Below are positions 35,580 to 38,706 of a DNA stretch of 64,000 nucleotides, piece after piece. Source of the DNA: Candidatus Roseilinea mizusawaensis (GTDB taxonomy: Bacteria > Chloroflexota > Anaerolineae > J036 > Brachytrichaceae); assembly GCA_016841965.1 (NCBI GenBank), contig JAEANN010000042.1, forward strand, positions 1 to 64,000. Direction: 5' to 3'. Each line of letters begins with the position of its first letter. Within the stretch, counting starts at the first letter, position 1. The translations under genes were made by a program, and so were the position numbers. The notes under the pieces are model-generated. The model was given only the letters and a program-made list of their open reading frames with translations. It did no database searches and was not told where the DNA came from.

Positions 35580-36596
35580 CTAACGATTGGCCTGCTGTGC
35601 CGCCTCCCAAATGCGCGTGTCGAAGGCGGTCTGGGCAGCAGTGTCGGCCGGCAAGGCGTTGTAGCGCACCAGCATGTCGGCGAGCGCCTGCCACTGCGCG
35701 GCGCTCTGCCAGCCAAAACCGCGCTCGGTATGCGCGTCGCGCAACTCAGCTTCCAGCATATAGCGCATGTGTTCGGGATCAGTCTCCGGGCCGGCGTATT
35801 GCATCACGATCTGCACGGCTTCATCCGGGTTCGCCTGGGCATAGGCGATGCCCTGCAACGCCGCGCGCAAAAAGCGGGTCAGCGCATCGGCGTGTGTGCG
35901 CAAGTAGTCCTCGGTGGTGACGTAGGTCAGACCCAGCGTAGGCACGCCATAATCCGCTGCGTCCCACAGCACCAACTGATGTCCCCAACGCTTGAGCAGA
36001 TAAGGCTCGTTCGATTTGAACACCGGGTACACATCCACTTGCCCTTCGCTCAAGACGCGCGGGTCGAATCCGACGTTGACCAGATTCATCTTGTTCACGT
36101 CGGCGCCCGCGGCAGCAAGGAGCGCAAAGAGATCAGGCGGCGGCGTACCCTTGTAGCCGACAGTCTTGCCTTCCCAATCCTTGGGGGTTTGCAAGCCTGA
36201 ATCGGCCAGGGCTGCAAAGGCCTGCTGGCCTTTCTGGCCGATGAGCGCAATAGACACTACAGGCAGGCCGGGATCGGTGCGTCGTTGCAGGACGGTCGCT
36301 GCGTCCATCGTGGTCACCTGCACCTTGCCGGCCACCAGCAACTGCACGTGTTCCCCTCTGCCCGGTGAATGCTCGATCATCACATCCAACCCATTCTGAG
36401 CAAAGAAGCCCTTTTGTTTGGCCACATACGCGCCTACAAAAGGCAAGTTGGCCTGTGGCTTATAGCCGGCCATGAAGATCAGCGGTTGCAGCGCAGCCGT
36501 CGCAGTGGGCGAGGGGGCGGCCAACCGCACAGGGGCGCAGGCGCTCGAAACAAGCAGAGAAAAGAGTAAAGAGAGGAACAGGAATATCTTGCGCAT
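35580..36596 (-). CDS. ABC transporter substrate-binding protein, NMT1/THI5-like
   Basis: Lipoprotein signal SSACAP; GYKPQANLPFVGAYVAKQKGFFAQNGLDVMIEHS, TTMDAATVLQRR. Confidence 0.85.
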   Translation of the reverse strand: MRKIFLFLSLLFSLLVSSACAPVRLAAPSPTATAALQPLIFMAGYKPQANLPFVGAYVAKQKGFFAQNGLDVMIEHSPGRGEHVQLLVAGKVQVTTMDAATVLQRRTDPGLPVVSIALIGQKGQQAFAALADSGLQTPKDWEGKTVGYKGTPPPDLFALLAAAGADVNKMNLVNVGFDPRVLSEGQVDVYPVFKSNEPYLLKRWGHQLVLWDAADYGVPTLGLTYVTTEDYLRTHADALTRFLRAALQGIAYAQANPDEAVQIVMQYAGPETDPEHMRYMLEAELRDAHTERGFGWQSAAQWQALADMLVRYNALPADTAAQTAFDTRIWEAAQQANR

Positions 36597-36662: not shown

Positions 36663-37451
36663 TCACGCGCTCCAGCGCGTCACGCGCCGCTCGAGCCAGA
36701 CGATAAAGCCATAGGCGCTCATGCCGCTTAAGGAAAGCATGAAAATGGCGGCGAACATTGGAGGCAAATTCAAGTTGCTATAGGCCAACCACATCACGCG
36801 GCCCAAACCGCTGGAAGCGCCGGTCCACTCAGCGATTACCGCGCCCACCAACGCCAACGGCGCTGTGACGCGCAATGCAGCAAACAGATAGGGCAAAGCC
36901 AGCCAGGCGCGCAGATGAATGAGCACCTGCCAGGTGGTCGCGCGATGGATGCGCATTACATCGAGCATCTCGCGTCGGGCGCTCTGCAACCCTACCAGCA
37001 CGTTGACCAACGTTGGGAAAAAGGTTAGCAGCGCAGTGATGAGAATCTTGGGCAACACGCCAAAGCCCAGCCAGATGGTGAGTAACGGGGCAATAGCCGC
37101 CAGGGGTGTGGACTTGACCAGGATGGCCAGCGTCATCACTCCACGCTCCATCGACGGGTGCAACCCCACCAGGGCAGCGATCACACCACCCGTTGCCGTG
37201 CCGATCATCAGTCCGCCCAAGGCCTCGCCAAGTGTGATGAGCAAAGCAGACAGGTAGTAATCAGGTTGGGCGAGCAATGTTTGCGCAATGCGACTGGGCG
37301 CGGGCAGCAAATAGACCGGAATATCGCGCCAGCGCACCACGGCCTCCCAAAGACCGAGCGCAAATGCCGGCAGCGCGATTGCCAGGACATAGGACTCCAG
37401 ATACACGGCGCGCCGTGGGCCGGGTGTGGGACCGAGGATAACTCTGATCAT
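36663..37451 (-). CDS. ABC transporter permease (SsuC/ThiX/RibX-type)
   Basis: BPD_transp_1-like; [40 protein letters not shown]. Confidence 0.9.
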
Positions 37452-37487: not shown

Positions 37488-38618
37488 TCAAGATGCCTGT
37501 AGCAAGCCCTGCCAGGCGATTAGGGCGTTTGGGACAATGCGAAAAGCACGCCAGTGGGTAGCGGGCAGCCGGCCGGCTGCACCCAAGTATCTGCGGCGCA
37601 AACGATGGAGCATCGCCGAGAGGCCGCCGGGGAATTCGTCTTGCTGTAAAGGGAAAGCGCGCCCTCGCGCAATCACGCAACGTAACGGCGGCCAGGGTTC
37701 ATCTACACTCAGCGAGACATTGGGGTTATCCAGCACATATTCGGCCCATAATGATCCCTGCCAGGCAGCGACAAAAAAATGTGTACCGTCCCACTCCTGC
37801 CAGACGGGCACAACATGCGGGGCGCCATCGGGCCGCAGGCAAGCCAGCCTGGCCACCCACGGGGCAGCCAGAAAGGCGCGCATGGCCTCTGGGTCGAGGG
37901 CGCGACGGATGAGTGAAGTGTCATTGGCCACTTCCTGCCAGGGGGCGTAGCGCATTGCCCCCATGCGATAGGACAGGCGCGCGGCAATCTCACGCAGCAG
38001 CGGCACATATTCGCGCAGACGGCGTGCGCTCCATCGAAAGGCCGGCGCGCTCAGCAGCAGCGCCGCAGTCGGCGTGTGACCATCGGCGCAGATGGGCAAC
38101 GCAACCTCCACGCTCTCGGCGTCGCGGGTAAACACGTAGCCTTGTGACCGCCCTCTGGATGAGGGGATGGTACAAAGCACCTGCGCAACCGCGCTGGTGG
38201 ACGAGAAACGGAAGGCCGGTGGGAAGGCGCTGCGCACTTGCACCTGCGGCTCGACCTGCGCAACAAGGACTGCCACACCTTGCGTCGGCCATGCCAATGC
38301 CAGCGTCTCGGGCAGATTAGCCGCTTGCGCTTCCTGGTAGAAAGCAGCCTGCAAATCAGCAGCCGGCAGCCATCCTCCTCGCCAGGCCAACAGGCGCGGG
38401 CCGGCTCGATATCGTCCTCGCCTCTCAGCCTGCGCCACGTAGCCCAACTGCTTCAGCGTGTTGAGCAGCACAAACAGTGCGCTGCGCGAGATGTCCACGC
38501 GCATCAGAAGCTCGGCCAATTCGACGCCCTGCGGTCGATCGAGCAGCACTTCCAGCAAGGCCAGGGTGCGCTCGATTGACGAAGAAGTTTGCATCGACAC
38601 TATCGATAAAGTCCTCAT
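37488..38618 (-). CDS. IclR-type HTH regulator fused to C-terminal flavin split-barrel (PNPOx-like) domain
   Basis: N-term SSIERTLALLEVLLDRPQGVELAELLMRVDISRSALFVLLNTLKQLGYV; C-term LAAPWVARLACLRPDGAPHVVPVWQEWDGTHFFVAA...NPNVSLSVDE. Confidence 0.85.
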   Translation of the reverse strand: MRTLSIVSMQTSSSIERTLALLEVLLDRPQGVELAELLMRVDISRSALFVLLNTLKQLGYVAQAERRGRYRAGPRLLAWRGGWLPAADLQAAFYQEAQAANLPETLALAWPTQGVAVLVAQVEPQVQVRSAFPPAFRFSSTSAVAQVLCTIPSSRGRSQGYVFTRDAESVEVALPICADGHTPTAALLLSAPAFRWSARRLREYVPLLREIAARLSYRMGAMRYAPWQEVANDTSLIRRALDPEAMRAFLAAPWVARLACLRPDGAPHVVPVWQEWDGTHFFVAAWQGSLWAEYVLDNPNVSLSVDEPWPPLRCVIARGRAFPLQQDEFPGGLSAMLHRLRRRYLGAAGRLPATHWRAFRIVPNALIAWQGLLQAS

Positions 38619-38645
38619 ATCTAGATTTTAATCCAAAAAACAGGA

Positions 38646-38690
38646 CTTTTGCGCAGCGCCCTTTTGCGCAGCGCCCTTTTGCGCAGCGCA
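38646..38690. repeat. Three head-to-tail 15-bp repeats (cttttgcgcagcgcc) upstream of the IclR-PNPOx gene
   Basis: Three copies, only the last base of copy 3 differs; 28 bp upstream of the ATG at 38618. Confidence 0.97.
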
Positions 38691-38706
38691 CACTTGCCGG
38701 GCAGAG

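Follow-up and report, generated by a model that had tools for sequence, protein, structure and literature searches.

A contig of Candidatus Roseilinea mizusawaensis carries an operon that probably encodes an importer for FO, a 5-deazaflavin, repressed by a deazaflavin-sensing fusion of an IclR regulator and an FDOR split barrel; the fusion, the operon and its operator can be read directly in the sequence, while both the substrate and the ligand are what we infer from comparative analysis. FO, or 8-hydroxy-5-deazaflavin, is an analogue of riboflavin, the precursor of F420 and the substrate of CofD. The operon lies in the window, the 64,000-nucleotide stretch of DNA under study. Its parts are of known kinds, and what is new is their combination and the proposed ligand. 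In the literature searched, coverage of which was incomplete so that absence is weak evidence, we found no account of a transporter for FO or F420, none of an F420-responsive IclR protein and none of an F420-responsive regulator of any kind. Neither ‘uptake’ nor ‘salvage’ occurs in the text of a 2021 review of F420 (PMC8498797). A broader proposal, which we put forward tentatively as a serious possibility, is that many Chloroflexota are FO auxotrophs making F420 from scavenged FO, and that some of them use an ABC importer that is sister to RibXY and, in Anaerolineae, is controlled by a deazaflavin-sensing fusion of IclR with an F420-enzyme barrel. If this is true, FO would be a shared vitamin in microbial communities, and F420 would join the vitamins exchanged among bacteria. 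The question of how cofD-positive Chloroflexota without FO synthase obtain F420 would be partly solved, and the regulator would offer a ready-made genetic deazaflavin sensor, useful in engineering F420 production.

The three genes of the operon are as follows.

37488..38618, minus strand: fusion regulator made up of an IclR HTH, a shortened IclR effector domain and an FDOR/PPOX split barrel, 376 aa as called.
36663..37451, minus strand: ABC permease (BPD_transp_1) of the RibX/ThiX/SsuC type, Pfam PF00528, E 6.9e-28; the family is kept next to the regulator.
35580..36596, minus strand: substrate-binding protein (SBP), NMT1/THI5-like and proposed to bind FO, Pfam PF09084, E 1.8e-46.

The regulator gene is a single uninterrupted open reading frame of 376 codons. 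A sequence-only reading had described its product as an IclR HTH and effector-like region joined to a C-terminal PNPOx-like barrel, and Pfam bore out the two ends within one protein, placing HTH_IclR (PF09339) at residues 14–63 (E 1.7e-9) and PNPOx_N (PF01243) at residues 243–328 (E 2e-10), both above cut-off. In the effector-like region, IclR_C (PF01614) is matched by 20 of the 30 aligned homologues at E ≤ 0.01, the threshold at which HTH_IclR and PNPOx_N match all 30, but the domain is shortened, and in the window protein its match (residues 157–216) is below cut-off. At profile level the regulator family matches full-length IclR structures, including TtgV and T. maritima IclR. An AlphaFold2 model, which the same reading had called for, has a mean pLDDT of 88.3 and three folded parts, the first of which matches IclR structures in Foldseek, with a split-barrel fold at the C-terminus. 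A PHROGs scan gave an HTH-level match only.

The architecture recurs in Chloroflexota, where the earlier reading had suggested looking for it: 29 full-length fusion members, the window's included, occur in 298 Anaerolineae genomes, and one genome outside Anaerolineae also carries the fusion. The named relatives are Anaerolineae MAGs, and no second full-length copy was found in the host genome. Because full-length homologues at 38–69% identity to the window protein keep both ends in one frame, a frameshift artefact joining two separate genes, which the sequence-only reading had itself raised as an objection, is excluded. The union of the IclR part with the split barrel is old. The real start of the protein is more likely ATG 38594, giving 368 aa, than ATG 38618, because the latter sits inside operator box 2 (see below) and conservation begins ∼10 residues later. 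The fusion shares the HTH and, apparently, the effector-domain fold of the one-component IclR regulators TtgV, T. maritima IclR and BlcR, and it also has the same kind of palindromic operator over the promoter of the adjacent operon. It differs from them in the shortened effector domain and in the C-terminal FDOR split barrel of ∼130 aa.

What the barrel binds is suggested by its relatives. The best C-terminal match of the window protein in NCBIfam is TIGR03618, the F420-dependent PPOX class (E 4.9e-13), and this model is matched by all 30 fusion members. The window protein reaches 49.4 bits, below the TIGR03618 cut-off of 79.05 bits; on sequence, the regulator barrel is related to the family but not filed in it. 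The best split-barrel fold match in Foldseek, covering the last 130 residues, is 3f7e, the F420 reductase MSMEG_3380 (TM 0.78 by target length, rmsd 2.8–3.2 Å), which is classed as an FDOR-B1 enzyme (PMC8498797). Enzymes of the FDOR-B/TIGR03618 group (MSMEG_3380, Rv2991 and Rv1155) are thus the nearest known systems in sequence and fold, and their DGxPxVxPVW core is retained across the fusion family. Apart from the sub-threshold score, the barrel here differs in being joined to a DNA-binding regulator and in its cofactor segment: where the canonical enzymes have a basic xxKxRN (TKRQKYRN in 3f7e, for instance, or RDRVKYRN in the canonical PPOX that the host encodes next to cofCD), the aligned fusion members have WxGSxW or a sequence close to it. 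An almost invariant DEPWPPLRR follows this segment. In canonical barrels the basic residues make contact with the phosphate tail of F420 or FMN, and their loss would suit a ligand lacking such a tail, for example FO, rather than F420.

By these comparisons the barrel appears to group with the F420 (deazaflavin) class and not with FMN or heme barrels. The earlier suggestion that the protein senses flavin or redox state was too broad, since nothing found here points to redox sensing; the F420-class barrel, the lost basic residues and a transporter clade tied to F420 biosynthesis genes point instead to a deazaflavin, FO or F420, as the likelier ligand. A different division of labour, with the IclR effector domain sensing a small molecule and the barrel serving in dimerisation or being an enzyme carried along, would agree with the IclR_C domain still recognisable in two thirds of the members, with the profile matches to full-length IclR proteins and with the loss of the canonical basic segment. 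We consider it unlikely, however, because many positions of the barrel are invariant in the 30-member alignment (W273, W276, W291, P311–R313 and R343–Y344), beyond what would be expected of a passive appendage. The partly kept effector domain could bind a different effector.

The permease and SBP genes lie downstream of the regulator on the same strand, and the pair comes after the regulator in nearly all carriers whose contig continues. An extra ATPase gene separates regulator from permease in more distant relatives. The three genes themselves stay grouped, while the genes on the outer sides vary between carriers; in a few loci the permease was not shown by the mechanical gene caller, though a gap of the right size is present. 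The upstream neighbours (LLM oxidoreductase, 2-hydroxyacid dehydrogenase, M20 hydrolase, molybdopterin oxidoreductase, DUF4832/4874) were considered as a clue to the substrate and discarded, as they vary from family to family. In two genomes a gene for a DUF4874/DUF4832 protein is located between permease and SBP (L041 7670–9082 and L042 10896–12344).

A tree of 92 SBPs puts the regulator-linked proteins and their orthologues in one clade (support 0.999) that is sister to the RibY clade (support 0.998), with a sister support of 0.923 and with ThiY outside. The window SBP falls outside both the FMN-riboswitch-linked RibY clade and the ThiY clade. Neither the FMN riboswitch (RF00050) nor the TPP riboswitch (RF00059) gave a match in the window, and a scan of 19 SBP loci, regulator-less ones included, turned up no riboswitch of the TPP or any other kind. 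The one FMN riboswitch of the host drives a separate ribXY-type pair on contig C45, and in other Anaerolineae, too, those FMN riboswitches that were examined are ahead of ribXY-like genes. The possibility that the downstream genes are RibXY itself, with an FMN-sensing barrel replacing the riboswitch, was weakened by two observations: the host's sole FMN riboswitch serves this other pair, and the SBP clades are separate. Clade separation likewise led us to discard ThiXY. Compared with RibXY of Chloroflexota (Caur_0816–0817, under an FMN riboswitch), the operon has the same two-gene layout of permease and SBP, often without an ATPase gene, and a sister SBP clade. It differs in being under a probable protein repressor rather than a riboswitch, in its distinct SBP clade and F420-gene links, and in coexisting with a separate ribXY. 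The ThiY/ThiXYZ pyrimidine transporters share the NMT1/THI5 family of SBPs, but the window SBP belongs to a separate clade, and control by a TPP riboswitch is a feature of ThiY. A side observation concerns a 639-codon stop-to-stop frame (L172 10396–12312; genome G000, contig C24) that has a ThiY-like SBP in its C-terminal half and lies downstream of a match to the TPP riboswitch that scores just under cut-off; it may be a permease-SBP fusion.

The link of the SBP clade to F420 comes from gene neighbourhoods. The SBP was found in 29 of 400 Chloroflexota genomes, 15 of them outside Anaerolineae and most of these without the fusion regulator. Several arrangements place it with F420 genes: permease-SBP-cofE with overlapping genes (G406), the SBP and an FbiE-like nitroreductase beside cofC and cofD (G383), an SBP-FbiE-like pair (G488), cofE and npdG divergent from ATPase-permease-SBP (G583, G489 and G648), and the order PPOX-npdG-SBP (G467). 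In G355 the fusion regulator is followed by SBP-ATPase-permease. An F420-core gene is present in 7 of 19 SBP loci outside Anaerolineae, spread over four families, but in none of the 39 ribXY loci and none of the 20 TPP or other loci used as controls (Fisher 2e-5 when loci are counted, 0.003 with each family counted once), an imperfectly matched comparison in that the 59 control loci are all from Anaerolineae while the F420-gene clusters are nearly all outside it. Within Anaerolineae, the rate is one in 30 regulator loci. The stand-alone PPOX ahead of npdG and the SBP in G467 (L227 5205–5714) is close to the regulator's barrel and may represent a relative of the sensor domain that stands on its own.

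These neighbourhoods bear on two other substrates. PNPOx-like barrels often bind FMN, and the operon might be a second riboflavin (flavin) importer, its barrel sensing FMN as the protein counterpart of the FMN riboswitch. The sister relationship with RibY would suit this, and riboflavin transport has been shown for RibXY of Chloroflexus (PMC4418817). Several observations nevertheless make it improbable: the host and most other carriers already have a ribXY under an FMN riboswitch, and the window SBP is only ∼29% identical to the SBP of the host's ribXY; it is the SBP clade, not the ribXY loci, that has F420 genes as neighbours; and the relatives of the barrel are of the F420 class, with the basic residues of the cofactor segment missing. 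Import of a thiamin-type pyrimidine (FAMP or HMP) or another heterocycle, with coincidental F420 links, is very improbable, because although ThiY 3ix1 is the closest solved SBP by sequence (E 2e-30), ThiY forms a clade of its own, the genus has a separate TPP-riboswitch-linked ThiY SBP, none of the scanned SBP loci has a TPP or other riboswitch, and the SBP adjoins F420 genes in four families.

The simplest reading remains a RibXY-related importer of FO in cells that have CofC, CofD and CofE but lack FO synthase. In the host, genes for CofC and CofD lie on the same contig as the window, ∼105 kb away and with a canonical F420 PPOX beside them, and CofE is also encoded. No match to CofH was found in the host at E 0.001, and CofG is probably absent too, because in positive genomes the CofH model also picked up the probable CofG half of FO synthase. 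Across the 400 Chloroflexota genomes, CofH did not pass cut-off in any of the 29 that have the SBP (overall p 0.022, ignoring shared ancestry). Restricted to CofD-positive genomes, CofH is found in 0 of 22 with the SBP and in 53 of 243 others (p 0.010, shared ancestry again ignored). The SBP and CofD themselves are not significantly associated, CofD being present in 22 of 29 SBP genomes and in 243 of 371 others (p 0.31, with shared ancestry ignored), and their co-occurrence was dropped as support for that reason. CofD was not seen in seven SBP genomes; a real CofD match is missing in 4 of 21 regulator genomes tested, and in a few more the match is below cut-off. The proposed F420 link is one of gene clusters and a missing FO synthase, not of strict co-occurrence.

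The SBP is itself missing from 190 of 212 Chloroflexota genomes that have CofD but no CofH, and therefore other sources of FO must exist. FO can cross membranes by diffusion (PMC8498797), which cuts both ways: FO is available outside cells, yet a transporter might be dispensable. As a wider observation, 212 of the 265 CofD-positive Chloroflexota genomes have no CofH above cut-off, and many members of the phylum may scavenge FO or draw on a source of it that has escaped recognition. A CofE-like ligase is present in 61 of 62 Anaerolineae genomes, one of which (G228) has no real CofD match, a hint of a second role for this ligase.

Control of the operon appears to be exerted at two palindromic boxes upstream of the regulator.

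38632..38645, minus strand: operator box 1, TCCTGTTTTTTGGA (family consensus TCCAGTATACTGGA), which carries the −10 hexamer in many orthologues.
38612..38625, minus strand: operator box 2, TCTAGATATGAGGA, 6 bp after box 1 (20-bp period) and overlapping the called start codon.

A footprint across 26 operons recovered two 14-bp palindromes of this consensus, separated by a 6-bp gap, upstream of the regulator in about 18–20 of them. The −10 hexamer begins exactly 5 bases into box 1 in at least 10 operons, and most of those have TTGACA-like −35 boxes 16–17 bp upstream of the hexamer; the window's own −35/−10 match is weak (p 0.31). The tandem site at the regulator promoter is the only 0-mismatch site in the host genome. 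Among 13 carrier genomes scanned, every 0-mismatch site belongs to the regulator's own promoter, and in most genomes the frequency of 2-mismatch sites elsewhere is close to that of the control. The cofC, cofD and cofE regions from carrier genomes have no comparable operator-like sites apart from one weak match, and a wider F420 regulon was rejected on this basis, genome scans leading to a single target. The exception, a tandem-palindrome match in the cofD region of G046 (L261 5514–5547; score 9.6, versus 1.2 in a shuffle), could be another of the regulator's targets.

Because operator box 1 carries the −10 box in many orthologues, the regulator is probably a dedicated autorepressor. Its control over the downstream transporter genes, as the sequence-only reading had supposed, is most likely, given an operon layout kept in about 30 genomes and a conserved operator overlapping the promoter. 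In the mechanism that we propose for FO import, the fusion protein would act as a one-component autorepressor of its operon, and the SBP and permease would import FO into cells most of which possess CofC, CofD and CofE yet lack an FO synthase. Inside the cell, the barrel at the C-terminus would bind deazaflavin, either FO or F420. When deazaflavin is plentiful, the operator would be held and the importer repressed; when it is scarce, the importer would be expressed. The ligand would thus be a co-repressor, a sign of regulation that we infer because of the logic of vitamin uptake systems.

One further element of the promoter region was noted. A 15-bp unit (GGGCGCTGCGCAAAA), which was not seen ahead of the other regulators, occurs in three tandem copies just upstream of box 1 (window 38645–38692).
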